From NCBI GenBank assembly GCA_964036295.1, contig OZ038464.1, forward strand, positions 4,529,501 through 4,593,500: DNA of 64,000 nucleotides, written 5' to 3'. The notes beneath the pieces were generated by a model. The model was not told where the DNA came from and did not search any database. It was given only the letters and a program-made list of their open reading frames with translations. How positions within the stretch are numbered: the stretch's first letter is position 1; each line of letters opens with the position of its first letter. The translations under genes were made by a program, and so were the position numbers. Shown here one piece after another: positions 17,187-58,668 of this stretch. The DNA comes from Plumapathes pennacea. Its lineage: Eukaryota; Cnidaria; Anthozoa; Antipatharia; Myriopathidae.

Positions 17187-18529
17187 AGTAATATATACAA
17201 CAAATACTACTTATGGACCGAGCGTGAGGTCTGTACGGAGAAATTATCGCCCGAGGTTTTGAACATACAGACCGAGCCGCTTCGGCGAGGTCTGTACGGT
17301 CAAGACCGAGGGCGATATTTTCCTCGTACAGACCGAGCAACCGAGATCAATAAGTAGTTTATTATATGGCTTCAAAGTTTTACATCAAAACAAACATCGA
17401 ACAGCACTTCGTCTCCGAACAACTTACGTGCGTACGCATGCACTGACTCAGCGCGTTTAGACTAAATTAGTGACCACAGCTTCTCAATTTTGCAAACTTA
17501 TACAATACTTGAGATATATAAATATTTGACACATCGGATGAATTCAGATGAGCTTGAATTTTTAAAGTACAAGCCCCAAATGTGCCGGCTTTGGTTCAGC
17601 GAAAACGTCACTCGGTATAAAACCCATCACGAGCGTGGCGAACTAAAAATAGTTTTCCTTCTTCTTTTTCTTCTTCTTCTTCTTCTGATAAGCGATTTCC
17701 AACACAAAATTAGCAGAATTTTATTTGCTCCAAGCGTTTGTATATGACATGCGATCACAACATTCAAACGCGGGATTCAAACAAAGAAACTATTAAAGAA
17801 ACTACAATATTTCGTATCCCTCAACCGTCGGCACAGAAAATTGTGCGAATCAAAAGTTTATCATTTTCTCAACAGAAAGATAAGTTCCTTCACTCAAGTC
17901 TTCAAAGATGTTGAAATGAAACGGCGTTCACACTCTTAAAATGCCATACTTACAGTTTCATTAAGCTTCGCGATGCCACAAACCAAGTCAACAAATCTTC
18001 AACTCCAACCGTTTTCTCGGCTTGCAAATTAGTTTCCGTGGTGGTATTTTTTTCTCACATATTTTCGTTCTACCGCCTTGCCTTCAGCCAAACGTAGCCG
18101 ACATATTCACTGAAAGCAAAGAACTGCACGACCTCGTGATTCATGTGTTCAATCTGCCGGTCCGTAATCGAGCACACGGGCGTTACAGGAAAATAATGAC
18201 CGGCAAACACACCAATCAGAGCGCGCAATTTCACCGGAAGTAGCTCCAGCCATATAATAATTACCAAATATTTTACATTAGCTCTAACTGAACTGGTGGG
18301 ATATAAATTAATCCGGTTAGAACTTGTGAAAAGTAACTAAAGTTATCTATGAGACAAGAGGTCCCTCTTACGTATGTTTTTCTTAAATCTATGGAAGTTA
18401 AATATATTTCTGTCCGTACTGCTGAAGATGCAATTTCCGTAACTGCTAATAATAAGTACTCTAATCATATGTATATGACGCATACAGTAGCTTACTTGTG
18501 CTGATCTGATACTATTCGTCTTTTTCCAG
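17187..18529. other. Foldback segment and upstream region of gene 1
   Basis: At 17,217-17,346 GGTCTGTACGGAGAAATTAT is imperfectly inverted as ATATTTTCCTCGTACAGACC, a small foldback. The rest up to 18,529 holds short open frames without recognisable domains. Any 5' exon or promoter of gene 1 should be here, but none can be identified with confidence. Confidence 0.4.
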
Positions 18530-19171
18530 CTAGGGACATCATTCTTCCAGCAATGGCTTTTATCAAGAAAGCTGTAGCTTTTAGCCAGCCAGATAAAAAA
18601 GGTAGTTCCCTGTATGCTATCAGAGAAGATACCCATACCCCTGGACAAGATGGTAACAGATTAGGAACAGCATGTGCAGTAAAGAAGAAGATAGGAAAGA
18701 CAAAGGAATATTGTCTGATGACATGGAACAAAGTTGGACAAAACGCCACTCAAGGATTGACAGTAGAGCGGTGTTTGTTTCAGGAACGCAAAGCAAAGCA
18801 TGAGAGCATGAAGATTGACAGCCCTTCGGAAGAAAATGGCATTTCTTACTTTGAAGTGAAAAAACCAGTGTGTTATTTAAACTTGATTGATCACAAGTTG
18901 TCCAAAGAGGAGTTGAAAGTGTTTCAAGCATGCTTTTCAGCTCATACTTTTGTAGACAAAGTGGTAATACAACTTGAGTTTAAGCTGCACCATGGAGAGT
19001 ATGAACTGATTAAAATCACACCACAAGAGCAGCATAGATTTGACAGGAATTGTGCCATTGGAGCACCCATCATTGTCGAGTTGGGCAGAAAAGACACAGT
19101 CATTGGTGTCCTGGGCATTAAGTCACCTGATGGCAAACTTGTGCCTGTTTTCCATGAACATGTTGGCATGG
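18530..19171 (+). CDS. Gene 1 exon: N-terminal domain, possible inactive trypsin fold
   Basis: This exon encodes about 210 residues between an acceptor TTTTTCCAG and a donor GGTATGT, phase 1 on both sides. It contains GTACAVKKKIGKTKEYCLMT followed by WNKV, and near its end NCAIGAPIIVELGRKDTVIG followed by VLGI. In trypsin-fold proteins the matching places are G-T-x-F...LT-x-x-HV and G-x-SG-x-P...V-x-G-V. Here Lys stands at the His position and Ile at the Ser position, so it would be catalytically dead if the fold call is right. The middle is Glu/Lys-rich with KPVCYLNLIDHKLSKEELKV. The assignment rests on a few motifs; it could instead be an unrelated cnidarian NLR N-terminal domain. Confidence 0.55.
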
Positions 19172-22100
19172 GTATGTAAAAATTAATGTAGATATTCCTT
19201 CCCAAATACTTGCATATACTTGTGAGCTAATGATCTTAATTTACTAAGCAAATTAGCAACATGGAATTTCAAACAGTGTTGTACTGTACAGTAGATCACA
19301 CAATTTCTAATTCTAAGTTTGGATGGGACTTTTCTAATTTCAAAATCTGTTTTTTGTACATTCTATAGTTATCAGTCTTATTGGCATTCCCTTGATTTAG
19401 TGAGCTAAAGTGTGTGATGGAAAGAGAACGGGAAAGGGAAGGAGTGTCAGAGAGGACAGGGACAGCTACAAACACAACTCTGATTTGTCCACCAATAACA
19501 ACTGTATAGTCATTTCAGTGCTTGATATTAACACTTGTTTGGTGGGGCAGGAAAATTTAAGGCCGGGCAACCAGATATTATGAAACATTCTATTGCTTGA
19601 AGTCAATCTACAGTCCAAAGGGCAACCAACCTAAAATCTTAATGTGGAGCACTGCATTTTGTTTATTACACAGTATATCCATTAGAACCACCTCAGAATG
19701 TGAGATTTCCTCACAAAGATTCAACAAGTATTCTGGTGCAGTGGGATGAAGTACCACAGGGTGATCAGAATAGAGTCATCAAGGGATACAAGGTCATGTG
19801 TACAGCATCACAGAGTGGAGTACAAAAGACAACAACAGTGTCTGCTCCAACTAATTCTCTAAACCTGACAGAGCTGGACAAATTCACAGAGTATGACATC
19901 AGTGTCCTGGCATACACTGCTGCTGGAGATGGACCAGCGAGTTCTGCCATGAGAGTGAAGACAGCTGAAGACAGTAAGTTATTATAATATTGTTTCTTGT
20001 GATAATAAATTATAAGGCTGAGCAGGAGAGGCTCTGCAAGTAACATTTTTCTCGTTCCCACCAAAGTAATATTACTAAAAGGCGCTAGCAAATATATTCT
20101 TGTTCACCTTGTGAGTCTGTCTATAAGTGCTGTATTGTTTTATAGGGGCATGTTTTATACATGTACATTACGTCTAATTATTAAGTACAGGGCAGGGACG
20201 ACGGCAACATTGGCTTAACAAAAGTAATCACAGAAGACATAAATATCAAAATAAATGAATATCTGAAATTGACATGATCTTTCGGTCATTGAGCTCTCGC
20301 TTGAGGCTTCAAATGCTTCTTTTTTTAGGTTGTTGTCATGACATGGACAATATTTTGAGGAAATATATCAGTCGTTCTTCTTAGGAAGAGATGATGAAAG
20401 CAACAGAACCTCGGTAAAACGGAACAAATTGAGAATTGTACATGCAAGGATAAACAAAGTTACAAACACAACAAATAACAAATTTGGAGGCACTTCTTTC
20501 CTGGTTCCTTGCATTGCCTTTGCCATCCTAGTTTTACTTGACTCCCTTTAGCCACTTTAGAAGAACTTCTAAAGCAGTTTATTTTTGTAAGGGTCAGATG
20601 CCTTTGATGTGAGACTTTTTATTCTATCAGAGGCCGAGGCCAGCCACAACCAGACCGACCATTCACAATCGGTCCAATACATTATGTTCCTCTCAGACGA
20701 GAAAGAATTTGATAAATGAATTTATTTTCCTGTTGACCTATTAGGACCCAGCTCCCCTCCTCAGAATGTCACAGCTCGCAACAATGGCCCAACAAGTATT
20801 CTGGTGCAGTGGGACGAAGTGCCGCAAGACGATCAGAATGGAGTCATTACAGAATATGCAGTTCTGTTCAAAGATTTAAAGAGTGGAATAGAGGACAGGA
20901 AAACAGTGAATGCTCCAACTAAGATTCTTGAACTGAGTTCACTGAAGAAATCAAGCAACTACAACATTAGTGTGCAGGCTTCTACAGCAGCTGGAGCTGG
21001 ACCAAGAAGTGACGTCAAGACAGTAGCAACACCTGAAGGAGGTAAGTATCAATATTGTGTTCAATATAGAAAAAAACCTTTCCCGTTTTGGACGCCACAA
21101 AGCAGTTGAGCTTACAGGGTTTTCTTTTTGGTAATAAAAACTCGTCATGACGTCATGACAGATCATGATGTAGAGATACTGGGGCTGATGATATAGTTTT
21201 CCAAATTGAGTAAGATGAGACTGAATGAAAAGAAAAACGAGAAGAGAAGAAAACTACGGATCACGAGTCAAGACAGTCTTCTGAGTTGAGAAGATCCCCT
21301 TTTCTGACAAACCAACTATTCTGTGCATGCTGTACGTGGATTTATTATATAGACACGAGTGTTTTACTGGAAAATATACCGTGCGTAAAATCCATACGAA
21401 ACTACATCCAGGACCTAAGTGGCGTATTTTCCATATCCTCACTAGTGAGGATATCGTTGGCATCATTTCTCGCTTTTGCACGGTTGTTTGTGCAATTTCT
21501 CGTAAAACACTCGTGTCTAATATAATAAAAAGAAAATTACATGGTGGATTGAAGATATGGATTTTACTTTCGAGTGGTAAAAACAACATTTTACTCACTC
21601 GCGAAGCGCTTGTTCGTAAAATATTGTTTTTACCACTCGAAAATAAAATTCATATCTTCACGCCGCCGTGTAATATCCTCTATGTATATTCATATCATTG
21701 AAATGACTAGATAAATTAATGTTATCAAAAATTGTTCGTTTTTATATCTAACAATAACATAAACACATACATTAAAAAAAAAAACAGATGGAGTGGATAA
21801 ACAGCCACAGGTAGAGAAATATATACTCAGCTAGGGTTGCCATTGTGTGGGAAAAGTCAGGCAAAAGTTCATTTTTTCAAAATCATGGAAAAGTCAGCGA
21901 ATTTTGCATCAAGTCAAGGAAAAGTCTGGACTCTCGTCAAAGTCATTGAAGAAGCTTCGATACTGATTATGCACAAGACAATGTCATTTCAAAAACATTT
22001 TTATGAAGATGAAGAAAAACAGTGTGATAACCTTCAAAAGAAACTTAAGCGAATGCAAAGTTAAGGGAAATCATGGTCATCGGTTACATGTACATCATAC

Positions 22101-25100
22101 ATGGTCATTAATTTTTTTTCTCTAGTCAGTAAAATCAGGTAATATTTATATCTCAACGAGTGGTAACACTGGTATTATTTGAGGATACAAATATAGCGGC
22201 AAGAGCGAAGAAAGGATAATAGCTGTTTATTAATAATTCTGGAGTTCTGCTACATGTATGTGAATAGTGATAAGCAGTAAAAATACAGTTAAAATGGTTT
22301 TGTAGCGCCAAACCTTCCTGAAACCAAGAACCCTCATGAGACGGAGCTGCAGAGAAAAAAAAAAGGATTTTGACTAGTTGTTGGTGCACAGGAATTGCAT
22401 TGAAGACTGAAAGAAATATCACCAGAAACACATGTTGCCAGAACGTTATAGGAAAAAAAAGCTTCTTGAAAATCCAACACGAGAAAGCAAATACATATGG
22501 CAATATAGCAGGTTCCTTTTAAATGACAAGCTTTTATAAAACATAAGAGTCACGACTAACAAATGTGAGCAATACTATAAAGAGTTCCATCAATGCATGC
22601 TACTGCGAGGTTCTTTCAGACATTAATAATTATGCTATGGAAAAAAAAAACCATAACTTCAGACAGAAAAGTTCAGGTATTTTTGGTTTCTGTTCTGATA
22701 TATCTTGGTTTTACTCTAACTAAAACAACTTAGTTAGTTAAAGGACTGTTCCAGGGTAACTACTGTCTAACGAAAAGGTTTGGGAGGATGTTTAGTGGAC
22801 CATTGATAACTCAATTATTTGCCTGGATTTGTTTCGTTCGTCTTCAATTCACTCTTTCTATTACCGACGTCAGACTATGTTGTTTGTAAAAGTAATCAGC
22901 CGGCATTCCAGGGTTGAATTGGCAACAACACAGTAACCTTTCTCGTTTTCCTACTCGAAACTACGATAACCTTTAGAAGAACGAATCCTTCGCCATTTTG
23001 CCTGTGTAAAATCAATCAGGATCAAACTCGAACAGACATAACCAGATCATTTGGATTAAGTTGATTAAGGTTGAAATTTTATAATAGAAACCGCCAAAAG
23101 TTTAAATAATTTACATGGGTTAAAGCCCGAGAAAACGAACGCACCATGCTGGGACGGTAAGAGCAGCAATTGCGATGCATTCTCGAGTTTTCTATCGTCT
23201 ATTTTAATCGGGTTCATAATCGGACCCAACATCATTATACGGATTTGCGCAGAGTTTTTGGATAACACTGTTGTGCGATGTTGTGCCAACATGTTGCATT
23301 CGTTTTCTGGAGCCTTTACTTTATTTTGAAACGTTACAACAAGTCGCTGTCCTGCTATGGGTTTCTACCAGAAGGCGGTGGAAAAAAAAAAAAAAAAAAA
23401 AAAACTGCGTTTGATGAAAATTATCTGTGCTTACGAAGTTCAGCTGCTTTGTCATTGTTGATATTTTGCCAGCAATAAAAGTTTATTCAGAAGATTTCAA
23501 ACTATTCTTTTTGTTTTTGTTAAAGTGCATATAATCTCTAGAACGATCATAACATCTACGAATACTCATCTATGAATTTGTAATTTTTTTGTTTCAAAAC
23601 GGCTTAGGAAAATTCAAAATTCAATATGGCCATTTCTTTCACGTTTAAACCTAGCGAAAAAGACTTTTGGCGGCAATTTCGAATCATGACCCTAGAAAAT
23701 AATCCCTGGGTAAAGTTATCTTCTAATATCATGCAATAACCTCTGACCCATGCGTACTTAGTCTGATGCGTAGCCAATCTCAGAATCTGATTTGGGAGTC
23801 AACGTTATAAAATCATGACAAAAGATAGAGACAAAAAGCAAACAAACAAACAAAAACAAAGTGAACCTAAAGAACAACTTCCTAACATGACGTCATGTAA
23901 GTACTAGTTCTCACGCGGACGCTCGGACGTAACTTCTTCCATGCATTTTTGTCGGCGTGAAAAATGTCAAGGTGAAGCTCAAGCTAATCATTATGTTTTA
24001 CTTGATCAAAGACTATGCAAAGATTAAAAAAATGTAGTTTTGGGCTGATGATACTCAGTTCTCCTAGCAATACTTTGCTATGGACAAAAAGTACCTAAAA
24101 AGGACCTTGGCGTAATATTAGACACAATTTTATCCTTCAATGATCATGTCACTACCTTAGTATCAGATCTCATGGGAAAGCTATGTGTGATAGGCAGAAA
24201 TAAGCACCCCCTAGACCAATCGACATTATTTACTGTGTAGTTAATTCACTAGTTTTTACCAAGTTGTTCTACTGCTCTTCAGTATGGTCTGGCACCAGCA
24301 AATATAACGTCGCAAAACTGCAACTTGTACAAATTTTGCAGCTCGATTACTCCTGACCTCCTTTACATTAAAGACGCCGTACAAATGTTCAAATGCACGA
24401 TTGGCCTGGTTCCCAGTTATATCAAAAACTTGTTAATTAACATATCCCACGTGCACAGTTATAAGACTAGGAATGGTGACTGTCTACAATTCCCTTCATG
24501 TCAGGCTGCACTAGCTCAGAAACCATTTATGTATAGTGGCGCTCGTACTCGGAATTCTATATCCAGTGAGATGCGAAGTTGCAATTCCGCTAGTTTTTTA
24601 AGAGTAAACTTAAAGCAAAGCTAATAAACATTTGGCTCAACGCTTGTCCATAGCTACAGCAGTTTGTAGATTAAGTTTTTTTTAACCCTTGGCCACTTAT
24701 TTACATTACATATATTTCATTGATACTATCTTTTGCTTGTAAATTAGATATGAAGAACCCTGGCGGGAACCTAATAAACCATATTGTATTGTATTGTACA
24801 CATGGACACTGGTTGTGAGAATTAGATTAATTCTTGGTTTGCAATCAATCCTCAGAGACTCAGATAACAAAGATATCACGGCCATGTTGCTTCCGAGTAC
24901 AGTAGAAGCTAATGAGCAATCTTTTAAAAGGTTCATCCACTTTCCTCACCCACCCCCACCGCCACCCCCCCAACCCCCCTCCTCGGTAATTGTCTATGAT
25001 CACATTCCAGTCAATGTACTGTAGTATTCTAATTTCTTTTCTGCTCTTTTAGGACCCAGCTTCCCACCTCAGAATGTCACATCTTGTAGCAATGGCCCAA

Positions 25101-25510
25101 CAAGTATTCTGGTGCAGTGGGACGAAATGTCACAAGATGATGGGAATGGAATAATCAAAGGATATGATGTGCTTTTCACAGACTTAAGGAGTGGCAAAAA
25201 GGACATCAAGAGAGTGAATGCTCCAGCTACACGTTTGGAACTGAGTTCACTAGAGAAATTCAGAAAATATGACATCAGTGTTCTGGCTTTCACTGCTGCT
25301 GGAACTGGACCAGCAAGTTCTGTCCTGACAGTGATGACTGGTGAAAAAGGTATAATTAACCTACAATCCTGGTCATCCTTGATTATATTGCCACATGGTG
25401 AATATTGCCCTGGGAACACTGGCCAAATTGACTAAAATCCCCCCCCCCCCCTGCCCCCTCCCCTTACTCCTAATGCTGGATGAGGGCACAAAGCACAAAT
25501 TCAACATTTA

Positions 25511-25542
<32 letters not shown>

Positions 25543-28500
25543 TCAGGAAGTTTCCTGTTCTAAAACATAACCAATCAACTGGCAATTAATGAGTGGTATG
25601 ATAACAATCAATTCCCAAAAATATTTTCGTTTCCACTTCAGCAATCTCTTGGAATTTGATTATCCCAAATTATCATTGACACAGCAGGGCTGACTGGCCA
25701 GGTCTTGTCTGCAAGAAGCTCTTGTTTCACAGAGCTGAAAAACCACAGCAGATTTAGACTTGAGCATCTGCTGATCAGTGAAAATTGTATCTTATCTACA
25801 GTAGATTTGCTCAGTTGCCATTAGTATAGGTAATCACATGATTTTGAGTGCAATTTGAAATAAATGAGCACGAGTAAATTTTCAAAGACCACAAAATTGC
25901 ACGAGTGCCACGCGAGTGACATTTGTGGTCTTTGAAAACTTTACGAGTGCTTATTTATTCAAAATTGCATGCGAAATCATGTGATTACTTGTTAATAACA
26001 TGCATACAATAATTTTTGTCGAGCACTCTTTTTTCAATTTCGTTACAATTCACAAGTGTCTCAAGAACTTTGTTTTCTCAAAACAGAATCGGACTCGGCC
26101 TGAGGAATGAAAACGCTTTCTGTTTTGTTTTGTTTGGCTTTGCCATGAATATGCGCGCCAGTTATCTGCAATTTTCAATTTCAAGTTTCTGCACTGTTAA
26201 TTACACATTTTTGCACTGTTTGGGATAAATTGACGTGCACTCAGCCAATCAGAATGCAGCAATTATTGTATGCATGTTATTAACACTGTAATCTCACTTG
26301 TTTTGGTCTAAACTCACTTTCTTATGGACTACAGTTTATGCTACAGCTGTCATATTTTGTTTCAACTGCATATAAAAACAAAATTTATGTTTTGTAATTT
26401 GAGCCCATGTTATTACAATAAAACAGATATTATTTCCTGATAATAGAGGCAACCATGTTATGTCATAAGTATAACGTAGGGGCAGCACCTGGAAAATTCA
26501 AATAAGTTTTGTAGACCAGAAAATAAGTCACTTCGGTACATGGTATCTATTGCATGTAAGTCAAAACTAAAATTTAGCAATACATGTAAATTTAAGAATC
26601 AACAGGGAGCATTTAAGAGAGCAGGTTGTTTTTCAGTCAATTTTCCACATCATTGTCCCAATATTTTGATAGTCAGAGTGACCCATTAAAGACTGCTACA
26701 CGTATTTACTTCATTCTAATTAAGTTACACAGCAATTAATATGAGTTGCTTCTTAGATGCATACTGTATAATAACTTTCGATTTCTTACATTCCAGAGCT
26801 TGACCAACTTAGATGCCAACTGGCTGAGTTCTATGAGGAAAATATGTGCAGAATTCAGGTGGCACCTTGGGACCCAGATGACACAGTGCATATTGATGAA
26901 GTTTACACACGACTTTCATGGAGCAGAGAAAACAAGCAGCTCAGTGGCACAGAAGAGCAAGAGCTGAATGACTATACTGACATTTTTCTTTGTTCAAAAG
27001 GCAGTGCTAATCCTAAAAGGATTGTTATTTATGGACAAGGAGGAATTGGCAAGTCAACATTCACTCAAAAGTTGTCAGTCGATTGGGCTAGTAGAGAGGT
27101 AGAGGCACTAAAGAAGTTTGACCTGTTGTTAGTCATCAAGTTGAGGGATGTCTGTGGTGAAGTTAGAGATCTAAAAGAAATGATTGTGCAATCAGGACTC
27201 TTACCTTGTGATGAGCCTGCTCAAGTGGAATGTTTGTTGAAATACATATCTGAAAATCAAGATAGAGTTTTAATCCTCTTTGATGGCTTTGATGAGTATG
27301 ACAAAACAAGAGATACTCAGTCAGATGTGTATAAGATTATAACAGGAAAGATGTACAGAGGTTGTCATGTAGTGGTGACCACCAGGCCAGTAAAGTTAGA
27401 TGAATTGAAGAAGTTCATGCAAGCTCAGTGCAAGATCAATGGATTCACCTATGAGGACATCACAAAGTTTGCTTCTAAGTATGTTGGAAAAGACCAGTGT
27501 GAGACCTTCATGAAGTACTTGAGAAAGCAAGGTCTTCTGAACATGGCATCAATTCCACTGATGTTACTCTTTTTGTGCCTGCTGTGGAAAGAACATAGTG
27601 ATCAACCTCTCCCCAGCACAAGAACCCAGCTTTTTCAGAAAGTAACACAGTGTATCATTGATCACTGCCATGCCAAACAGTCTCCTGATAATCTGAAACC
27701 CATAGACGAATACAGTGAGACATTGTGTAAGATTGGCAAAGTAGCATTTGAAGCACTGCTTCAGGATTCTTTAGTGTTTGACACAGCCCTGCTATCCAAG
27801 GAAGTACTAAGTGATGATATTGTACGACTTGGTTTTTTGTCAATGTCCAAAGTCCAGCACCAGCGTTCCAAATTAATGGCTTCATTTTTTCACAAGTCCA
27901 TTCAAGAATTTCTTGCTGCCTGGTACATCACAAAGGAAGCCATTTCCCAAGGAAACTGTGACTGGGTATCACGCTTACAGAATTTTACCATTCTTAAGAA
28001 CTTCCAAGCATTTCTTGAATTTGTTTGTGGCTTGTCAGCTGATGGTGCTAATGCTGTCTTCCTGCGCCTTCAGAAAATCAGAGAGAAAGAGAGTCTGGTA
28101 CCAAAATGTGACATTGCAAGATGGTACTTGGACTTTGACATTAATCAGAAAGCGTTTCAAGATTTATGCCGCACAATGTTTCTGGCATTGGACTGTAAAG
28201 AAGCCTTTGTGGGAGCATATCTTGACTGTGTGGGCGGAGTGGTGCAGTTTTATGAAGATCCCCGTTTTGGGAACACCACTGGGATCAAAGACTCGGGGGG
28301 ACAATTGCTTACATTGCTGCTTCGCCACGACAGCTTGGTTCAGCTTCAATTCGTCTTTGATGCGAGCGACCCAGACAAAATGAAAGTCATGAAGGTGTTT
28401 GATCAAGAGGATGTCAGGACGCTAATATGGGCAACAGGTGGTCAATCGAAAGGTTCAAAGTTACTTGAGGCCACAACAAAGGAACAACAGTTTTTAGTAT

Positions 28501-30434
28501 TAAGAAAGAAAACTGTGCCCTACCTTTACTATGATGTATCCGGTGTTTCTTTCACACCTGAGCTCGTTCGCCTTTTTCAGCCTCCAGCTTCACACCAGAG
28601 TCGTTCAGAAGGCGAAGCGTCCGAGCCTGAAAACGGTCAGGAATTTGACATACATCAACAATCCAGTGCTACAGAAAATGAGCTGCCTGTACACGCGTTG
28701 TCATTTATCGCTGAAGCTCGTTTTGAGTACGTTCCGGAAGATACAGTTTTGGGTGAAATACTGAAGAATGCTCCATACTTAACTTTGCTGGATTTATCAA
28801 ACAATCCCCTTGGAGCTGGAGTGAGTGTTTTCGCCAGTCAACTGGAAAATCTTCCAAAGCTGAAGGAGTTGCACCTGAACAACACAGAGATGAGTGGAAG
28901 AGAAGCCGGTGACCTGTCAAGAGCGCTGGTTCATATTCCACACCTGACGCATCTTTTGTTGGGTTACAATCCCCTTGGAGCTGGAGTGAGTGTTCTCGCC
29001 AGTCAACTGGAAAATCTTCCAAAGCTGGAGGGGTTGTACCTGGAGAACACAGAGATGAGTGAAAGAGAAGCCGCTGACCTGTCAAGAGCGCTGGTTCATA
29101 TTCCACACCTGACGCGTCTTTGGTTGGGTTCCAATCCCCTTGGAGCTGGAGTGAGTGTTCTCGCCAGTCAACTGGAAAATCTTCCAAAGCTGGAGGAGTT
29201 GCACCTGTACAACACAGAGATGAGTGGAAGAGAAGCCGCTGACCTGTCAAGAGCGCTGGTTCATATTCCACACCTGATGGATCTTCACTTGGATCACAAT
29301 CCCCTTGTTGGTCGTGGCGTCATTTGTTTGGCTGAGCAGATAGTGACCCATGTGCCTGAGCTTCAGTTTCTGTCTCTTTACAACACAGGAATGGATGACG
29401 AGTGCAAAGCTGCTCTGCTGAAAGCCAAGCAAGACAGGGAAAAAGCGGGAGGCGTGGATTTGGAGGTGAGCATACTGACATGTTACATATGACTTTTATT
29501 GACCCTTCAATGCCCAAATATCCAAATCCTAAATACCTTAACCTGACACACAAAAAAAGTCAACCAGGAGGGAAAGATTTCAGAGTGCTTGTGAATACAA
29601 CAGTTGTGATAAAATACATGGCTTTTGAATCAGTTGATATTGTCGTTTTAGTTGTTTGAATAGTTTTCAAATATTCCTTGAATTTGAGAAGACAAGAACA
29701 GCAAAATGTGGATCAAAGACGAGTGAGGAGGCTCGCAAAAGTTTGTTGTACATTCAGTCAAGGTTATCGTAATAATACCTTTGCGAGTGTCTGCCGCTAT
29801 AAAGCATTTTGAAAGGCTGTAGCATGGAAACCTTTACACTGTAGAAAGTATGGTTTCAAACAAACTTGCTTTCATAAAGAAAGACATTTTATGGCTTTGT
29901 TTTTAGCAGTGGAATTCAAGCGACAGTATAAAAATGATAATACTAAAAGTTTACAGGCGTTCATATTTTCGATAATTTCGGTGCTGGGTTTTGCCCGTAT
30001 TGAAATACTGACATACAATATGTGAAATCTCTTTCTATAAACTAATAAATCTCGTGGAGACCCACGTACAGTATTTATACGATTTATACGATGGCAGTTG
30101 TACGTACTGGTGATGCTGATCCGAACCGTTTGTATCGAAGTGAGAGCTGCGAATTTAGTAAATTTTATTAGAGCGAGATAAAAGCTAGAGTTGGTCATTT
30201 TAATCAAAGAACGACACATTCATTTCCTTTGAAGCAACGTTGATTTGACTTCTTCCTAGTTTAGCCAGCGAGGTAATGAGAATGTTGCTTCTTTTTATAT
30301 CACACTGTCAAAATATTGCTTTTTATGATTTTTCTGTGTGTGGTTCATTGACTAACATACATGTATGTGGACAATATTGTCTCTCATAACAGATTTATGT
30401 TGACGTTGTAAATGGAGAGTATATAAAGTTATGA
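18530..30434 (+). CDS. Gene 1: trypsin-fold(?)-Fn3x3-NACHT-LRR NLR-like receptor
   Basis: Spliced model: 18530-19171, 19674-19973, 20745-21041, 25053-25349, 26797-29465, 30393-30434. The joined length of 4,247 bases is two bases plus 1,415 codons including the stop, so the frame closes. From the ATG at 18,553 this gives 1,407 residues. Domain order is an N-terminal domain of possible chymotrypsin-like fold, three Fn3 domains, a NACHT NTPase and LRRs of the ribonuclease-inhibitor kind. NACHT-LRR proteins are intracellular STAND-type receptors in innate immunity; no signal peptide or membrane segment is visible. Introns between domain exons are all phase 1; the last is phase 0. The exon starting at 18,530 opens in phase 1, so an upstream exon may exist, or the ATG at 18,553 (G at -3, G at +4) may be the start. 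The ligand and signalling output are unknown. Confidence 0.75.
19674..19973 (+). CDS. Gene 1 exon: Fn3 domain 1
   Basis: A 300-bp exon bounded by TTATTACACAG and GTAAGT, phase 1-1. It shows the fibronectin type III signature EPPQNVRF...ILVQWDEVPQGDQNRVIKGY...NLTELDKFTEYDISVLAYTA, including the core Trp, the L-x-x-L-x-x-Y-x-I strand and the closing G-x-G-P-x-S. It is the most divergent of the Fn3 exons here; the other three start with GPSxPPQN. It probably serves as a spacer or interaction surface. Confidence 0.9.
20745..21041 (+). CDS. Gene 1 exon: Fn3 domain 2
   Basis: A 297-bp exon after CCTATTAG and before GTAAGT, phase 1-1. It reads GPSSPPQNVTARNNGPTSIL, VQWDEVPQDDQNGVITEYAV and a C-terminal YNISVQASTAAGAGP. 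It has the same length and borders as the Fn3 exons at 25,053 and 57,297, which points to recent exon duplication within and between the two genes. Confidence 0.92.
21344..21690. mobile_element. Nested foldback elements in a gene 1 intron
   Basis: GACACGAGTGTTTTAC (21,350) is inverted as GTAAAACACTCGTGTC (21,504), and a second, tighter palindrome at 21,556-21,658 pairs GATATGGATTTTACTTTCGA with TCGAAAATAAAATTCATATC. Open frames across the region are by-products of the inverted repeats. Confidence 0.65.
22740..24095. repeat. Intron segment paralogous to 59,500-61,440
   Basis: The two copies match through landmarks such as GACGTCAGACTATGTTGTT, GAAAACGAACGCACCATG, CCAACATGTT and TGACATGACGTCATG-like bases. 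This copy lacks the TTAA-flanked element seen at 59,827-60,517 and the Helitron-like insertion seen at 61,441, so it preserves both empty sites. A poly-A tract lies at 23,382-23,403. No exon is seen. Confidence 0.75.
24096..24798 (+). mobile_element. 5'-truncated LINE, reverse transcriptase C-terminal end
   Basis: The plus strand reads KKDLGVILDTILSFNDHVTT, then after breaks SITPDLLYIKDAVQMFKC, GLVPSYIKNLL, HVHSYKTRNGD and ARTRNSISSEMRSCNSASFL. This is the usual C-terminal end of cnidarian non-LTR retrotransposon ORF2 (thumb and connection region). The 3' end is an ATTGT repeat after AATAAACC, typical of LINEs that end in short tandem repeats rather than poly-A. A paralogue starts at the equivalent place at 63,232, so the insertion predates the segmental duplication. 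Confidence 0.75.
25053..25349 (+). CDS. Gene 1 exon: Fn3 domain 3
   Basis: A 297-bp exon between CTGCTCTTTTAG and GTATAATT, phase 1-1. It contains GPSFPPQNVTSCSNGPTSIL, VQWDEMSQDDGNGIIKGYDV and LEKFRKYDISVLAFTAAGTG. Its C-terminal half is closer to the Fn3 of gene 2 at 57,297 (SSVLTVMTGEK in both) than to Fn3 domain 2 of its own gene, suggesting that gene 2 carries a copy of this exon or that gene conversion occurred. Confidence 0.92.
25511..25542. repeat. Long poly-G tract
   Basis: About 27 consecutive G bases, preceded at 25,439-25,451 by a poly-C run, in the intron between Fn3 domain 3 and the NACHT exon. Such tracts favour G-quadruplex formation and are also prone to assembly error. Confidence 0.9.
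25820..26283. mobile_element. Composite MITE A+B, uninterrupted copy
   Basis: The foldback part (25,820-25,990) carries CAAAGACCACAAA paired with TTTGTGGTCTTTG, and is joined through GTTAATAACATGCAT to MITE B, which ends with TTATTGTATGCATGTTATTA. It lies in the last large intron of gene 1. It gives the empty site for the Harbinger insertion at 14,888. Confidence 0.75.
26797..29465 (+). CDS. Gene 1 exon: NACHT and LRR
   Basis: A single 2.67-kb exon begins after CTTACATTCCAG in phase 1; joined to the preceding G it reads ELDQLRCQLAEFYEENMCRI. Counted from the Met at 26,844: Walker A GQGGIGKST at 64-72, Walker B LILFDGFDEY at 143-152, a TTRP motif after the hydrophobic CHVVV, and the FHKSIQEFLAAWY segment that ends the helical part in many NLRs. 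The LRR part holds ribonuclease-inhibitor-type repeats (LTLLDLSNNPLGAGV; LPKLKELHLNNTEMSGREA) in three near-identical 55-residue blocks, then a diverged last pair. A donor GAG|GTGAGC at 29,466 in phase 0 is favoured; reading through adds only VSILTCYI before a stop at 29,490. Confidence 0.93.
28806..29300 (+). repeat. Three 165-bp tandem LRR-coding repeats
   Basis: The motif CCCCTTGGAGCTGGAGTGAG recurs at 28,806, 28,971 and 29,136, exactly 165 bp apart. The units differ at few bases, mostly in codons on the predicted LRR face (for example LKELHLNNTEM, LEGLYLENTEM, LEELHLYNTEM). Confidence 0.95.
30393..30434 (+). CDS. Gene 1 probable last coding exon
   Basis: CTCATAACAG precedes a 42-bp stretch encoding IYVDVVNGEYIKL and a TGA. 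Phase 0 matches the donor at 29,466. It is short, so the evidence is the frame and the acceptor only. An AATAAA at about 30,786 could serve as the polyadenylation signal. Confidence 0.5.
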   Translation: MYVDVVNGEYIKL

Positions 30435-35129: not shown

Positions 35130-36173
35130 TTAAATATCGACCTCACTTTGGGACATATCGACAGAATTAACGAGTTCTAAAGTGGACTGGGTTAGTCTAT
35201 TTAGCACAACGTTTCTTCTTACATGAAGTTCTTCTTGATGAAGCGTTAGGTTAAACGCTTTCGTCCTCACGAGTAATGCGCTGATTGGTTGGTTCAATTG
35301 CGTCATGTTAATTTCTGCTTGATTCTTCTTGGTTTTACAACAGGAAACAAAGGAAGACATTGCCCTTCTAAAATCTGGAATCCGGAAGCAATAGATGATG
35401 GGATTCATGAATGAGTTGCTGTACTGAAAAAGTTTAACGCCTTCATCTGGAGACACTCGTAGAATAATATTTGTCAAACTGGGTTGGTAATAATTTGAAA
35501 AATAAAGGACGCTGTATGGAAGCCACGCTGCGAGGAAAATGACCGTTGTGATCAGCAGTGTAGTGGCAAGTCGCCGGTCTTGTTTTGCGTGTGCGCCCGG
35601 ACACGATCGCACTTTGACTTTGATCCACAGACATGAGTAGGCAAGACACGTAACTGACAATGGCGCGAACAAGAACGCCGCTATGATGGAGTGGAAGGAC
35701 AGAAACGAGAGTAGGCCGCGCCGAAAAAGTACGAATGTCATCACAGGAAGTATAGTTGCAACCCAGAGAAGTAATAAGCTCTTTAAGTAGGTCTTGGTAG
35801 TGATTTGACGCAGTTGGAACGGTCGAAATATAGCGTAAAGTCTCTCCAGGGCAATTATAGTGAGCGTGAAGATTGAAGCAAGACCAAGTGTCATGTCCAC
35901 GATGACAAATGGATAACTGGACACCAGCAAAGCAAGGCGCAGTAAGTACATGGGGATTGCTAACAATCCAACCACCAGATCAGCAAAAGCCAAATTAATC
36001 AGGTAGATGTGGGCGCGCGCACGTTTAGTGACAGGAAGCCTCCTGAAGGAAGCGATTGTCAACGAGTTTGCTGTTACTATGGCAATGGCTGTGATACAAC
36101 AGACTGCTGTCCATGAAGTTTTTAGTAAGGTCTGGAGACTTGTGACTCGCACTGTGGACGAGAAGTTGTTCAT
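35130..36173 (-). CDS. Intronless class A (rhodopsin-like) GPCR
   Basis: 347 residues with seven predicted hydrophobic helices. Class A landmarks: Asn in TM1 (TANSLTI), LAFADL in TM2, ERLYAIFRP at the end of TM3 in place of DRY, LLWVAT in TM4, AAWLPY in TM6 and NPIIYCF in TM7 followed by the amphipathic FRIPDFRRAM. A short N-terminus with one N-F-S glycosylation site and a Ser/Thr-containing tail complete it. It is expected in the plasma membrane. The usual TM3 Cys is not obvious. Sequence style suggests the large cnidarian group often labelled melatonin- or adenosine-receptor-like, but the ligand cannot be named. It is a single exon with the start at the first Met of the open frame. A truncated paralogue lies at 2,104-2,466. 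Confidence 0.92.
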   Translation of the reverse strand: MNNFSSTVRVTSLQTLLKTSWTAVCCITAIAIVTANSLTIASFRRLPVTKRARAHIYLINLAFADLVVGLLAIPMYLLRLALLVSSYPFVIVDMTLGLASIFTLTIIALERLYAIFRPFQLRQITTKTYLKSLLLLWVATILPVMTFVLFRRGLLSFLSFHSIIAAFLFAPLSVTCLAYSCLWIKVKVRSCPGAHAKQDRRLATTLLITTVIFLAAWLPYSVLYFSNYYQPSLTNIILRVSPDEGVKLFQYSNSFMNPIIYCFRIPDFRRAMSSFVSCCKTKKNQAEINMTQLNQPISALLVRTKAFNLTLHQEELHVRRNVVLNRLTQSTLELVNSVDMSQSEVDI

Positions 36174-36569
36174 CTTAGGAGCAGGATCAATTATCCTACA
36201 AAAAAGGGACAGATTTTGGTGAATAAAATAGGATGGCGATTTGTCTGATCAACAGAATTGACTTGGAGTTTAAAAAATACATCCAAAAGTTTGCTGGACC
36301 AGGAAAGTCAGTGCATCAAACCCCATACTAGACTGTTGCGAGTTAAGTGAAACAATTGGTTGCAGGCAGATGATAATCGAGATTTACAAGTTAAATATAT
36401 TTGCTGTTTTTTAGAAGACGCTTCCGTGCATGAAAACTGAAAAAATACGGTCAGTTGGTCAGCGTTCGTCGCCATATTACATCTTGTGCAAGCCTCGTTC
36501 TTCTTGTGCACAACTTATGTTATAGAAAATGCATTGAACTAGTTTATAGCTGAGTATCGAGTCCTTTAA

Positions 36570-52470: not shown

Positions 52471-53243
52471 TGCAACCCTATGAATGTACTATAGCATAAC
52501 CTCCAGTCAATACGTGACGGAACTTTAAAGCAGCCCAAACTTTTTTTAATCTCATACAGCTTGAGAAAAACTAGTAAAATGGTCAATAACACAGTAAACG
52601 GTCACAATGTTTTACGGTATCGTTTTTTCTTTTCTTGCATCATTGCGAAACCCAGATCAGTGGAGCAAACAAATCCTTAGGTCAAGAAATTTGCAGTCGT
52701 TTATGAAAGCTTAGGACCCGTTGACTATTCACAGCCACCCCCAGCCACACCCAGCCACACCCCTCCCTCCCCCCCCCCCCCTTCCTCTTAACATTCAGTC
52801 AAAATTTTGTTTCATGGTTATTGGAAATATATGGATATATTGGGGATTTTAGTCGATCGCGATACTCGAGTTTGACTGGTATTTTAAAGCTGAAACTTAT
52901 AAATACTTTGATTTCAGTCTGTGTGTATTTCTATGCCGCTATTGCAAGTTTTGCTCGCTCCGCTCGCCCTTTCTCCAAAGTACCTGCACTGTTAAACGTC
53001 CAAATTTTGGACCATCCCCCACCCCCTCCCCTTCCCAAAGTTGAGCGGGGAACTGGTGAATGTGTTGAAGGCCCTTTATTCGATGCCATTTAAAGAAGAG
53101 CAGTTTGGAATTTGTTTGAAAATTGTACGCAATGTTATTGACGGCGTTCGAAAACAAACTAATTCATCGTAGTAATTACGACCATTTACACACCATTTAA
53201 AACTTTTTTTGTGCAGTTATGAGAGAAAATATTCTCAGGTAAA
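52471..53243. other. Region upstream of gene 2
   Basis: C-rich runs lie at about 52,735-52,790 and 53,015-53,035. CTTTTTTTGTGCAG at 53,216 looks like a splice acceptor just before the gene 2 start codon, so a noncoding 5' exon may lie upstream. No other gene was seen. Confidence 0.35.
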
Positions 53244-53442
53244 ATGGCAACATCAGGATCAGAATCCGAATCAACATCAGAAACAGCATCAGAAGAAGCT
53301 GCCACCTCCGCTGACCAGGATACAACTCAGCATCATCCGATTGAATCAATATCGGGACCAGCATCAGAATCAACATCAGAAACAGCATCAGAAGAAGCTG
53401 CCACATCCGCTGACGAGGATGCGACCCAAGAACACGTGAAAC
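53244..53442 (+). CDS. Gene 2 exon 1: acidic low-complexity leader
   Basis: 66 residues rich in Ser, Thr, Glu and Ala. The block SESTSETASEEAATSAD occurs twice, from an internal duplication of about 50 bp. The donor AC|GTACGT is in phase 1. The ATG has A at -3. It is probably disordered. Confidence 0.7.
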
Positions 53443-56400
53443 GTACGTATCGGCTATATTTTAGCAAGGTGCTGTACTTTAAGGTAGGAGTCCAGGCTTT
53501 CGGACCCCTACTATTTAATGCACGACACTGTCACAGGTTGTGGATACAACTCAATCTTCACTGCAGGCTATGCGGCTCTAATTACTATTCCAGTTTACTG
53601 AGATCTGGTAAAACACGGCCTAAAGCTGGCTGTGATGATAACTCGTGTTTGGCTGCTGTTACAATCTAAGGTACTATTTTGCAATAAATGTATAATTAAT
53701 AAGAATTTTGGTCCATGACATTCTTATGATTCAAACAACATTTACAGGTGAACCATCTGTTAGAGAGCTGTACAAGTTGGCCCAGAAACTCGCTGGGTGT
53801 TGGTATTCTCTTGCAATTCAACTCGGGTTGGACAAAGACATAGTGGACAACATTGATCTCAACAATGCATACCGGACCCCAGCTAGAAAAGCGTCCCATG
53901 CACTGGTGGAATGGTATAACGAATTTTCACACGATGCAACGTATGAGAGACTCGCTGAAGCTTTAAAACAAGTAGGCCGTGGCGATCTAGCACAGCGGTT
54001 CTGCTCTGGACAGGTGAACCCAAAGGTAAATTTGTATTTTGTATAACAGAAGAACAACTATAGCATACCAATCACACGCATGTTTTTAGTAGAGCGTTTA
54101 CAGTCCCCCTTGTCTTTACAATATCGTGTAAGGCCCGTTTTAAACGTCGCACTACTGCCATGTCGAACTCAATGCGAATGAGCGAAATCCATTGTTTGGG
54201 CTTAAGCAAGTGAAACAGGAACGCTATTGAAGCGAGCGGAGACACTGCCGCAATCGCGTTCATTCTATAGCAAAAGAGGGCCTGTAAGGAATATAATGTC
54301 AGTGTATTAGATATTTTTACAACAAACTTCGTCGTCCTGGTTTTGCTCACACTACACATATATACCCCTTGTTCTCAAAGATAATTTATCAGGCGATTTA
54401 TCTTAACTCTTAGTTTGTCAACGAACTGATCGACGCGTGATTAAAAACATCGACCATAGAATAATTTCTCGGTCTGGAATTTTTCTGTCGTGGTTGACCG
54501 AAAGGAATTACATGGATTCATGGAATTCCAAAAATTAATTGCAAGCTGAATCTTTTCAAATTTAGATTGTTGATCTTTTCACATTAATCACTTCACATCA
54601 GGCTCTTGTTTTCTTTTTTATTTTCTCCTAGAGCGAGGATACACGGAAAAGGAAACATTGTAAGTATTTTCTTTCGTCTTTTTATTTCACTGGTGAAATC
54701 GCAGGCAGTCCAAGCTGATTGACTTTGTTACAGCACGGTTGGGTTTTATAAGAAATTGTATGGCAGGTTTTAGTCGATCGACAACTTCAAAATAATTGCG
54801 AAAATAAAGCTTAAACTTGCTCATGCACCTGGCTTGTTGGTGTGCTGGCGTTTCTGCTGCTGTAGCGATTTCAGCGCGATCCACTCAGTTTTACCTCTCT
54901 AGCTTATAATCAAAATTCAAAGTTTCAAAACAAAACAACAACAAAAACAAGACGGAAAAAGACAATATTTTTATTATTTCTATTGGTTGCTGTTGAGGGG
55001 GCCTTTGACGTCATAAAAGTCGTTTGTCGGCTAGGTTTCGAAGACGATATTTTTTTGACTTGCAAAGTAACAGGCGAAAAAGCAGGCTATGCAGAAAGGG
55101 ACTAGGAACAAGACATGTGTGCATGTTTATACCGCGCAGGATATCACTCAGCTCAATTTCAGCCTGAGAAAACAGCAGCCTCTCATCGCTCAATCCAAAC
55201 CGAACTGTTCTCAGGCTGCTCACTTTTACATCTAATTTTTGCCAATATTGTAAGCTCTAAACACAGACCGCCGGGTCTGCATGCACGTTACCTGCCCTTG
55301 CAACACTGCTTTCAGTTATTTTTGTTAATCATGAAAATATGCTGTGATGGTTTATCCTACCATTTCACCTGCCATTCTCACCAATTAATCGGTGCAGGAT
55401 TAAATGTGAAATAGAACATTATTTAACAAAGTAAGAGTTTCACTGCTCGGCAGCGATGCCTTGCGTTGTAACCCGAACTTGAAAATAACAGTTCTGTTAC
55501 TTTAATTGTCAATCCGACCTCTGTCTTCACTAGATATAATTTTATCTTTTATGAATCAACAGCACTGTCTGCCACATCAACTGCAGATTCTCAGTCACAT
55601 GAGGGACAGACTTTCAAGAAAACAAGGACAGTGGAGTCTTCTTTAGGTACGGTGCTGTGCTAGAACATGCTGGAGACGAAGTAAGATCAAAATATAATTG
55701 GAGCAATATACCCACAGGAAAGCTAGGAGAGAAACGGGTTCTGGTAAAAAGAGCGCGTTCTTCGTTATCAGCTCTCATGCACCGGAGCCGCAGAGAACCG
55801 AAAAAAATTAAAACAGCTTGTTTGTATCGGACAAGAGAGTCGCTCTATCTCAATTACACCATTGTTCCTATAAAACAATAGTTGTTTGCTCAGACAGTGT
55901 TTATCCAAAAGGCCGAAGAATTTTAAACACTGATAATTAAAAGGCAAACAGCGTCAGAATTCCCATCATAATTTCTTTGATAACAGCAAATAAGAACTTG
56001 GAAAATTAGAAACTTTTCCTTTTGGTAAAACGGCTGCTCTCTTACCGGAGCCTGTTATGACGTGTACCCATGCATATTGTTAGGACACAGTTTGAGTGAA
56101 TTAAGATATTTTGATCATCCAATAATAAATAAGGTTTGACTTGAACCAAGTTTGAACCTGAGGCGACGTACGTGGTTGTGGTGTACGAACATTAGTCCAG
56201 TTTTGTCCAGTGCCTTGTGAAAGTGTACAAAGCAACAGCTGGTTGATACCTCTCCAACGGCCACCCTAGAGACAGAATTGAGTAGGGGTGTAACATGACA
56301 CCACGCAACGTAAACTAAATGTGTCGAATTTCGTTAACTTTTTCTTTATGAAAGAGGCTTTTACTGACATGGATCTAGTTTTATGATCTTTTAATAGGCC

Positions 56401-58668
56401 ATACAATAACCACGTCAGAGATGCATTGTTTCTAAACGAGGTCTAGTGTGAAACCTTTCTCATAATCAAAGGCTCCTGTGAACCAACTCGTGAATGAGAA
56501 ACGCTATAGATCTATCCTCTGTATATAGCATTGAAGCCAAACAAGTACTGTTATTTTAGCCAACGCTACGGTTGAAAGGTGCTAAAAAGCTTTCGATCGA
56601 TCGAACTGTAAAATCCAGGTGACGTCCGCAGTTCGGTCTTAATTTTCAAAAACATGTGCCTTGAGAATCAAAAGCATGTGCCTTGAGAACCAAAGGACTC
56701 CAAACGTGAAAGATCAGTTCATCGCTTTTGCGACTCTCAACCTCCGTTTCGAACGTCGAGTGTTCTCGATCGCAAACTGGTCGCCATTTTCTTTGCAAAG
56801 CCTGCGCCAGTGTTATGCACTGGTCAGCGGAACCCGCTTCCGTCGGAAGTTTACACCCATGGAACGAGCGAGCGAGTGAAACTTCCCACCACTCACAATA
56901 ACTCATTCATTGCTTCGCATTTACGAGTTAAAACTTAGTTTTCATTTTCATGCAAATCAAACTCGTAGTTTTCATAAGGAAGATTTCGCAATAGGCCTCG
57001 GTTTTATAAAAAGGCAACAGGCATCTCGGAAATGGTCTTTTATATTTATGCATTTGTTCACATTTTAAACATATTGTTGATTCTGTAATGGAGAGGTTAT
57101 ATGAAGGGTTCTTTCCCCCCTCCCCCCCTGTTTTGCTTGCCGATGCATGGAGATTTGTATGCGTATGGATCGGCGGCCGGGATAATTAACCCTTGGTCGT
57201 TGCAGGTTGGGATCAGTGGTGGTTCGACTGTAGGTGTCTGTAATAACAGTCTAGTTTAGTCGTCTTTTAATTTTACACTTTTGCTGCCACTGTTAGGACC
57301 CAGCTCCCCACCTCAGAATGTCACAGCTCGCAGCAATGGTCCAACAAGTATTCTGGTGCGGTGGGACGAAGTACCGCAGGGTGACCGAAATGGATTCATT
57401 GAAAGATATGTCGTGGTTTTCAAAGAAGTAAAAAACAGCAGAGAGGAAAGGAGGTCAGTAAATGCTCCAACTCAGCATTTGGAACTGAGTTCACTAGAGA
57501 AATTCAGCAAGTATGACGTTCGTGTGCTGGCTGTTACGGCAGCTGGACCTGGACCAGCAAGTTCTGTCCTGACAGTGATGACCGGTGAAAAAGGTAAGGC
57601 TATAGTCCTGTTCTTATTGTTCTGCTATTTTTGGCTTAATAAATTACGGGATTTTACAGTTTTTACAGCAACTGCGCCGTTCATATTTTGTTTCTCTCAC
57701 TTAAAATCATTTCTCAGAGCATTTCCTAACCCCCTCCCCTAAATATAAATCGAAAGGCTTTCTTCTGATTAATGTTGCCGAACAAAAGGCCATTTGGTGG
57801 CGACGAAAGGCCCCAACATGGCTTTAGATGGTGTATGTGGCCAATAACTAGGGATCTTCACACACACACACGTAACTGTCCTAATCTCCCTTCTGACTAT
57901 AATCTAATTTGGTTCTTAGCTGATTACCGATTCAATGGAAAAGTTAGCGTATCAAGGCATGCGTGTATCTTTGTCAGACTGAAATTGAGACATAATGCCA
58001 TATTGTTTTAGGATCAGTGTAGGTACGTGGAAGCCAAGAAGCAAATTACTTCCTTGACCCTTAAACTCTAGTTAGTTTTCGAATAGTTATAGTTTGTTGA
58101 AACTTGCTTTGCAGGTGTTCCATCTGAAATTGAGCTTGACAATTTGTCTAAAGAAATTACGTTGTGCTGGAAGTCAGTTGGCATCCAGCTTGGGATGCGC
58201 CAAGCAGCGATAGACAAGATCACTGCTGACAACGTTCAAAACCCTCGACCTGAGCAGAAGGCCTATAGCATGCTTATAGAGTGGCGAGACCAAGGAAGCA
58301 CTTCAACATGCGATAAACTCTCAAAAGCGCTGATATGTGAAAAGAAATATGATCTGGCCCAAACGTTCTGGACTGTACAGGTAATGATGCAGTGAATGGT
58401 TTTTAACCAGGGCGAGAAGAATTCTTTAAGAGAGTGTAATCTGTGTATCTGATTTTCGTGTTTATTCTTTTCGAGTGTTTTGCAAACAGTTTTATTCCCG
58501 TGTATGTATTTTTTTTTTCTTCTATTTTGTACAACAGTCTTTCTTTTCTCTCTCTCTTTTTTTGTTTTTGTAGAGTGCTGATGTGTTTTTTTTGTTTTTT
58601 TTTATTGTTTATCTTTATTTTTTTGTAGAGTGCTGATGGACATCAAGTGGCATTTGGAAGTGTTGCAG
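53244..58668 (+). CDS. Gene 2: Death-Fn3-Death receptor-like gene, 3' part beyond window
   Basis: Spliced model: 53244-53442, 53748-54025, 54632-54659, 55563-55646, 57297-57593, 58115-58380, 58629-58668. The total of 1,192 bases starts at an ATG, keeps one open frame of 397 codons and ends in phase 1 with no stop, so more exons must follow. Order: acidic Ser/Thr-rich leader, Death domain, small linker exons, Fn3, Death domain, small linker exon. Death domains mediate homotypic assembly in apoptosis and innate immune signalling. Because 59.5-64.0 kb is the paralogue of an intron of gene 1 that precedes its third Fn3 and NACHT exons, gene 2 probably continues into Fn3-NACHT-LRR exons right of the window. 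No membrane segment is seen. Confidence 0.7.
53748..54025 (+). CDS. Gene 2 exon: Death domain 1
   Basis: After CATTTACAG (phase 1) it reads EPSVRELYKLAQKLAGCWYS, LAIQLGLDKDIVDNI, KASHALVEWYNEF and ERLAEALKQVGRGDLAQRF. The six-helix pattern with the central LGL, the V-E-W of helix 4 and the L-x-x-AL-x-x-VGR-x-DLA end is typical of Death domains of the ankyrin/MyD88-like kind. The donor is either CAAAG|GTAAAT at 54,026 (used here) or ACAG|GTGAAC at 54,014; both are phase 0. Confidence 0.88.
54632..54659 (+). CDS. Gene 2 micro-exon after Death domain 1
   Basis: A 28-bp exon between TTTTCTCCTAG and GTAAGT, encoding SEDTRKRKH, phase 0 to 1. It restores phase 1 after the phase-0 end of the Death exon. 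Support is splice sites and phase only. Confidence 0.55.
55563..55646 (+). CDS. Gene 2 linker exon
   Basis: An 84-bp exon after AATCAACAG and before GTACGG, phase 1-1, encoding LSATSTADSQSHEGQTF followed by KKTRTVESSL. It is Ser/Thr-rich and probably a flexible linker. Confidence 0.55.
   Translation, partial: HCLPHQLQILSHMRDRLSRKQGQWSLL
57297..57593 (+). CDS. Gene 2 exon: Fn3 domain
   Basis: A 297-bp exon between GCCACTGTTAG and GTAAGG, phase 1-1. It reads GPSSPPQNVTARSNGPTSIL, VRWDEVPQGDRNGFIERYVV and LEKFSKYDVRVLAVTAAGPG. It is nearly the same exon as those at 20,745 and 25,053 in gene 1. Confidence 0.92.
58115..58380 (+). CDS. Gene 2 exon: Death domain 2
   Basis: After GCTTTGCAG (phase 1) it reads LDNLSKEITLCWKSVGIQLG, MRQAAIDKITADN, KAYSMLIEWRDQGSTSTCDK and LSKALICEKKYDLAQTFW. 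It has the Death-domain helix pattern with L-x-LG, LIEWRD and a closing DLA. The donor ACAG|GTAATG is phase 0, as for the first Death exon. The two domains are clearly diverged from each other. Confidence 0.85.
58629..58668 (+). CDS. Gene 2 micro-exon after Death domain 2
   Basis: A 40-bp exon after TTTTTGTAG and before GTACTA, encoding SADGHQVAFGSVA, phase 0 to 1. Like the micro-exon at 54,632 it returns the frame to phase 1. A decoy GTAGAGTGCTGATG lies 60 bp upstream. Confidence 0.55.

Follow-up and report, generated by a model that had tools for sequence, protein, structure and literature searches.

The anthozoan Plumapathes pennacea carries, in a window of 64,000 nucleotides (contig OZ038464.1, positions 4,529,501 to 4,593,500; G000:C3:4529501-4593500 in the coordinates used here), a gene for an NLR (NOD-like receptor) of unusual build. 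The gene occupies window positions 18530–30434 on the forward strand and encodes, in order, an unnamed N-terminal domain that we call PD, three Fn3 domains, a NACHT domain and a leucine-rich repeat (LRR) region. It belongs to a tandem array of similar genes on the same contig, C3, in which PD and NACHT are constrained and a small set of exposed LRR residues varies sharply from one copy to the next. On balance, these patterns suggest to us that the genes encode cytosolic NLRs in which the LRR senses, the NACHT oligomerises and the PD signals, with an LRR face that is diversified in the germline.

The pattern is plain from comparison of this gene, copy B of the array, with copy A. Over the 440 codons that span the NACHT and the helical region the two do not differ at all, yet their 229-codon LRRs are separated by 33.5 nonsynonymous and 3.5 synonymous changes (Fisher p 0.029); of the 23 residues that differ, 14 occupy exposed beta-strand positions. 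When copy B is set against six copies, the ratio of nonsynonymous to synonymous rates (dN/dS) of the LRR is 3.12, 5.72, 2.33, 2.33, 5.58 and 1.12, and that of the NACHT 0.38–0.45 in five cases, with no change at all in the other; these values are not independent, for one NACHT is common to C, D and E, and one PD protein to A, D and E. Across 13 genes of the array, or 78 pairs, median dN/dS is 2.44 for the LRR (of the 76 pairs whose dS is above zero, 93% exceed 1) and 0.37 for the NACHT (none of 73 exceeds 1). Median dS is 0.040 in the LRR versus 0.149 in the NACHT. Six pairs that share no gene with one another sum to 259.8 nonsynonymous and 42.2 synonymous LRR changes (pN/pS, the corresponding ratio of proportions, 1.93; Fisher p 5.9e-6, a guide only, as the pairs are still related by descent), and to 324.9 and 225.1 NACHT changes (pN/pS 0.38); in five of these pairs the LRR has a dN above its dS. 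Selection was judged throughout by counting methods rather than by a codon model that allows recombination. Because the binding face differs so sharply between neighbouring copies, the LRR, not the PD, would seem to be the recognition part.

The variation is concentrated at particular places. The LRR consists of near-invariant units of 55 codons, hypervariable at codons 3, 5, 30, 32 and 34 and, less so, at 7, 8, 29 and 35. Among 39 units passed by a motif filter, the five hypervariable codons specify 7 to 12 different residues each, 77% of the entropy resides in 10 of the 55 positions, and fourteen positions (9, 12–16, 20–22, 24, 26, 31, 36 and 38) have the same codon in every unit, although eight of these are anchors whose amino acid the filter fixes. 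The filter dropped 4 of 43 units (2 of 26 in an earlier set), and because it fixes the anchor residues itself, the filtered entropies tilt toward the interpretation we favor. When 59 units are taken unfiltered, the nine most variable of the 55 positions are all exposed beta-strand positions, and the exposed share of the entropy is 39%, with the last units, which are in another register, included. Within units, the ten exposed codons have a dN/dS of 1.92 and the others 0.29. Unit number ranges from 3 to 7 among 13 paralogues, counting the last unit, and gene D contains duplicated units. A single-sequence structural model of the LRR (best of five: predicted local distance difference test, pLDDT, 79.6 and predicted template-modelling score, pTM, 0.78; pLDDT of the others 72.7, 45.9, 35.1 and 34.0) places strands at unit positions 3–7 (3–5 in the first unit) and 30–34, and resembles NLRP14, NLRP3, NOD2 and ribonuclease inhibitor in the PDB (E 9e-11 to 2e-9). 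On these strands the variable residues alternate with leucines, the arrangement expected of a concave face. Beyond the C3 array the LRR comparison covers two copies, L071 and L072 on contig C11, both NACHT-LRR regions downstream of a PD. These have a second family of near-identical LRR units, 26 residues long and of the ISDCRLLAESLKQNSTLEWLDLSYNK type, whose differences lie mostly in and near the LxxLxLSxN strand.

Judged by its placement, PD is a recurrent N-terminal domain of NLRs, because all seven C3 copies are ordered alike and most PDs elsewhere lie upstream of a NACHT. The PD exon has 19 matches in the 290 Mb assembly (24 contigs), and a diverged query adds two distant ones, 21 altogether; genome counts here are lower bounds, since 100 of 183 NACHT and 150 of 446 Fn3 candidates were scored. 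In the C3 array, each of the seven PD copies is followed by three Fn3 exons and then a NACHT exon, in the same order and on the same strand, and genome-wide a same-strand NACHT follows 18 of 21 PD exons at a distance of 12 kb or less; the gene is therefore no accidental assembly. The unusual layout of N-terminal domain, three Fn3, NACHT and LRR that the original prediction proposed is strongly borne out by the paralogues. The PD donor site is kept in all seven C3 copies and the Fn3-1 acceptor in six, our pattern having missed copy G. Twelve other array copies that were read have a long open frame (851–1071 residues) in the NACHT-LRR exon, and of the 13 array genes studied, 12, all except copy G, are followed by conserved DNA in the region of the last exon. 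A further six C3 genes match Fn3 twice and also NACHT, but not PD.

The order PD-NACHT occurs on four contigs besides C3. At C7:16.99 Mb only 0.8 kb separates the PD from the NACHT, and neither there nor in the copies on C2 and C12, which also have PD followed by NACHT, is there an Fn3 match. C11 has eight PD copies; two, read from the NACHT onward, are NACHT-LRR, and the unread interval between PD and NACHT holds none of the 150 scored Fn3 places. Because these copies have PD and NACHT without an Fn3 match, PD-NACHT is the general plan, and the Fn3 trio looks like an insertion in the C3 group. A NACHT tree of PD-bearing copies from C2, C12, C11, C7 and C3, one PD-less C3 copy and seven other NLRs puts the PD-bearing copies, together with the PD-less C3 copy, on one side of a branch with support 100/100, opposite those seven; its 16 rows sample at least 100 NACHT places, it is rooted at the midpoint, and a long-branch warning applies. 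This tree joins C7 with C3 and rejects a grouping of C3, C11, C2 and C12 to the exclusion of C7 (p-AU 0.0007); a union of C7 with C3 is acceptable to the PD tree as well (p 0.19). We considered a swap of PDs between NACHT lineages and set it aside, as the trees show no conflict that would call for one. Two array copies, h and m (G000:C3:4484928-4492685 and 4878432-4886192), about 393.5 kb apart, have equal Fn3/NACHT spacing and identical LRR units, and represent either a segmental duplication of recent date or a haplotype left uncollapsed.

PD itself is under constraint. Its dN/dS is 0.42–0.51 when this gene is compared with the six copies, and a comparison of five lineages finds it better conserved than the NACHT in 8 of the 10 pairings (57% versus 30% for C3-C11).

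A number of observations weigh against this account. Synonymous change, too, is higher at the exposed LRR codons (dS 0.30 versus 0.075 in the framework), and could reflect locally raised mutation. The linker ahead of the LRR has a median dN/dS of 0.92, close to 1, and therefore relaxed constraint contributes. In one of the six pairs that share no gene, G-k, LRR dS slightly exceeds dN; exchange between genes blurs pairwise dN/dS; and some array copies might be duplicates of recent origin or haplotypes left uncollapsed. As for PD, it is less conserved than the NACHT in C3-C7 (38 versus 41) and C2-C12 (61 versus 73), and three of the 21 PD exons (C3:328662, C7:1659588 and C7:1728594) have no NACHT that was found nearby.

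The predicted gene is confirmed in the sequence. Six exons are present in a common frame of 4,247 nucleotides whose sole stop is at the end, as had been predicted, and all five introns have a GT donor and an AG acceptor, introns 1–4 in phase 1 and intron 5 in phase 0. Exon 1 can begin at 18530 or 18551 (acceptors ending at 18529 or 18550), both ahead of the ATG at 18553. That ATG is most likely the translation start, because it is retained in all seven C3 copies, and because the C11 copies and the C7:16.99 Mb copy likewise have an ATG near the start of PD; an additional coding exon upstream is possible. From 18553 the protein is 1,407 residues long. PD is encoded by exon 1 (18553–19171 from the start codon, 206 residues, no Pfam family). 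The Fn3 domains are encoded one to an exon, each phase 1-1 and each matching Pfam fn3: domain 1 by exon 2 (19674–19973, 3.6e-15), flanked by splice sites, domain 2 by exon 3 (20745–21041, 4.9e-16), and domain 3 by exon 4 (25053–25349, 3.4e-14). The domain 2 protein is identical in five of the seven C3 copies, this one included. Exon 5 (26797–29465), with Pfam matches to NACHT and LRR, comprises the NACHT at 27018–27485 (1.1e-24; Walker A GQGGIGKS, Walker B LILFDGFDE), a helical region, the linker, and the LRR at 28779–29465 (LRR_4, 4.9e-13), which is made up of three units of 55 codons and a last, diverged one. Exon 6 (30393–30434), the last coding exon, encodes IYVDVVNGEYIKL and then the stop. 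All of these features are on the + strand. Intron 3 contains, at 21254–21701, open frames that are alike on both strands, suggestive of an inverted repeat and perhaps of a small mobile element, and soon past the third Fn3 domain, at 25439–25542, a homopolymer of C and another of G occur within about 100 bases.

What kind of domain PD is proved harder to say. We worked from two alignments: A1, with 17 rows (L013 and L014, whose proteins equal other rows, were left out of the 19 matches), and A2, with ten rows chosen for diversity; 26 columns are invariant in A1 and 17 in A2. The conserved motifs run GTACAV .. YxLL[ST]W .. [AI]xGAPII .. VIGVLG, an order that by eye resembles that of the core motifs of trypsin-like proteases. 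Two distant copies have IGSPVF or IGSPIL followed by VVGVVG, and their IGSP[VI] is close to the SGSP motif of the trypsin family. At the place of the catalytic His there is Lys, Arg, Gly or Ala, and at that of the Ser there is Ile, Val, Thr or Lys, in both alignments, on a register that was assigned by eye and is assumed. Profile searches brought no convincing family from Pfam (best 0.012), NCBIfam (best 0.0094, in 1 of 10 members) or PADLOC (best 0.028, in 1 of 10), and searches of the PDB gave nothing with A1, 0.9 with one distant copy and 0.64, to a T-cell receptor, with A2. Alignment by hhalign to the E. coli HtrA proteases DegP, DegQ and DegS gave a probability of 0.2%, from profiles shallow on both sides; this is at noise level, controls with Fn3 and a reversed profile giving 0.8% and 0.1%. 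AlphaFold2, from a single sequence, returned no usable model (pLDDT 37.4). Calpain domain III was considered for PD and dropped (E 0.037; best 0.012 in 5 of 17 members; below the cut-off where shown). A pattern search for bacterial or viral relatives produced 44 matches in genome contigs and 27 + 9 in viral contigs, none confirmed. The distant copies L047 (G000:C7:1659588-1660172, − strand) and L048 (G000:C7:1728594-1729127, − strand) have no NACHT within the roughly 10 kb around them; they come closest to the protease-like motif and are perhaps free-standing relatives of PD.

The original interpretation stands in part. As for a trypsin fold lacking catalytic His and Ser, the motif order agrees with it and both residues are missing at the motif places, but databases, HtrA alignment and modelling neither confirm nor refute the fold, and the register by which the residues are judged missing is itself assumed. 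A trypsin-like fold seems to us a little better than an even bet, and PD is probably a protease-like fold that is catalytically dead. That PD is instead an unrelated, unnamed signalling domain with some other fold is a real possibility, if short of even, given the lack of a convincing database match and an HtrA value at noise; the order and spacing of its motifs, and IGSP[VI] and VVGVVG in the two distant copies, speak against this. The original prediction went further, and made PD a candidate protease decoy or sensor of pathogen proteases. In such a scheme, PD would be a pseudo-trypsin that senses these proteases, or their inhibitors, and the Fn3-NACHT-LRR part would transduce the signal. In the aligned rows, motifs that suit a trypsin-like chain devoid of His and Ser are in keeping with it, and so are the inactive trypsin domains at the effector position of bacterial vWA-MoxR systems (PMC7159879). 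A decoy is expected to track a changing target, however, and PD does not have that look: it is constrained, it is better conserved than the NACHT in most lineage pairs, and the diversifying pattern is in the LRR. The idea is weakened accordingly, and we regard it as most improbable, although a decoy for a conserved target is compatible with the data and untouched by the argument.

Two further explanations concern the LRR pattern and the gene itself. Gene conversion, shuffling of units or locally raised mutation might have produced the pattern alone, with no selection for binding. Framework codons are indeed near-identical across units and genes, gene D has duplicated units, dS is lower in the LRR than in the NACHT, and it is raised at the exposed codons. 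Conversion alone, however, carries synonymous and amino-acid changes equally, whereas here the variation of the filtered units is concentrated in 10 of 55 positions, dN/dS at these is several times that of the framework, and pN exceeds pS overall; we think this explanation improbable. That the six exons are two or more genes wrongly joined is suggested by the long introns, of up to 4 kb. Order and strand are kept in all seven copies, though, the phases of this gene fit, and PD precedes NACHT on four other contigs, once at a distance of only 0.8 kb, so that a false join has very little to recommend it.

The gene product looks like a sensor internal to the cell. Fn3 domains might be taken as the sign of an extracellular protein, an interpretation we rejected: the N-terminus is not hydrophobic, and hydropathy over 19 residues rises above 1.5 in a single window, within the NACHT exon, with nothing membrane-like outside that exon. 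Five N-glycosylation sequons occur in the first 520 residues, but are not informative on location.

Comparison with known systems places the protein among the NLRs: it has a NACHT with both Walker motifs and a C-terminal LRR, and PD has no convincing match to an N-terminal effector or adaptor of known kind, something that NLRs do not strictly require. Like vertebrate NLRs of the NLRP/NOD2 type, it has a central NACHT and an LRR resembling ribonuclease inhibitor, the model of which matched NLRP14, NLRP3 and NOD2 best; unlike them, it has PD and three Fn3 domains at the N-terminus (Pfam found no CARD, PYD or death domain in the exons scanned), and its concave LRR face varies strongly between tandem copies. 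Fungal NLRs of the HNWD group, such as het-d and het-e, have near-identical repeats that vary in number and are under positive selection at a few binding-face residues; the repeats are WD40, ANK or TPR, and no LRR was found there (PMC4986451). High repeat identity, varying repeat number among paralogues and selection, by counting methods, at binding-face positions recur here, but in an LRR, in an animal, and among paralogues rather than alleles. The zebrafish NLR-B30.2 proteins form a similarly large family shaped by gene conversion and positive selection, with B30.2 the proposed recognition module (PMC4852459), whereas here it is the LRR that varies. NLRs of Acropora include new domain combinations, for example with glycosyl transferase. 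Anthozoan NLRs have expanded and have unusual N-termini (PMC10236652, PMC12314368); fn3, fibronectin and trypsin go unmentioned in the main text of PMC10236652. Thirty-five Pfam domains have been counted together with NACHT (PMC8260672), and Fn3 may be among them. In the literature passages searched, we found no report of Fn3 and NACHT in one cnidarian protein, nor of this LRR pattern in cnidarians. The sea cucumber AjNLRC4 joins Ig to NACHT in a comparable fusion, but is reported to be a membrane receptor without CARD or LRR (PMC8699970), and our protein has no membrane-like stretch outside the NACHT exon. In the bacterial vWA-MoxR conflict systems, trypsin-like domains are fused to the vWA component; nearly all of those at the effector position lack activity, and it has been proposed that they bind peptides or regulate in a dominant-negative manner (PMC7159879). 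We take their likeness to PD as an analogy.

Elsewhere in the window, a rhodopsin-type G-protein-coupled receptor (7tm_1, 1.1e-22) is encoded in a single open frame at 35130–36248 on the − strand, between NLR genes. At 53223–53669 and 57260–57742, both +, there is an open frame rich in Ser, Glu and Thr, internally duplicated (MATSGSESESTSETASEEAATSAD..) and without a Pfam match, and then an Fn3 exon (1.1e-13) that belongs to the next NLR, whose NACHT is just beyond the window. The Ser/Glu/Thr-rich frame is possibly the N-terminus of a PD-less subfamily.

If we interpret the array correctly, its proteins might work as follows. The concave face of the LRR would be the recognition surface, diversified in the germline through copying and exchange of units, both inside single genes and from gene to gene, while selection alters the exposed residues. 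A ligand on the LRR would free the NACHT to bind ATP and oligomerise, and the PDs, clustered in this way, would recruit a conserved partner, perhaps as a dead protease fold turned peptide-binding adaptor, by analogy with the trypsin domains of vWA-MoxR systems. The three Fn3 domains, inserted in this subfamily, might act as a spacer or as an additional docking surface. It is conceivable, if rather unlikely, that the array is an animal counterpart of the fungal het loci: a set of NLRs with exchanged, hypervariable LRR units and a dead-protease signalling domain, by which self, symbiont and pathogen are told apart.

Anthozoans have many NLRs. Here, the concave face of the LRR changes while PD and NACHT remain under constraint, and the sequence thus points to the part that would do the recognizing. 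It supplies named LRR residues for binding work, and makes PD a candidate for a new signalling domain.

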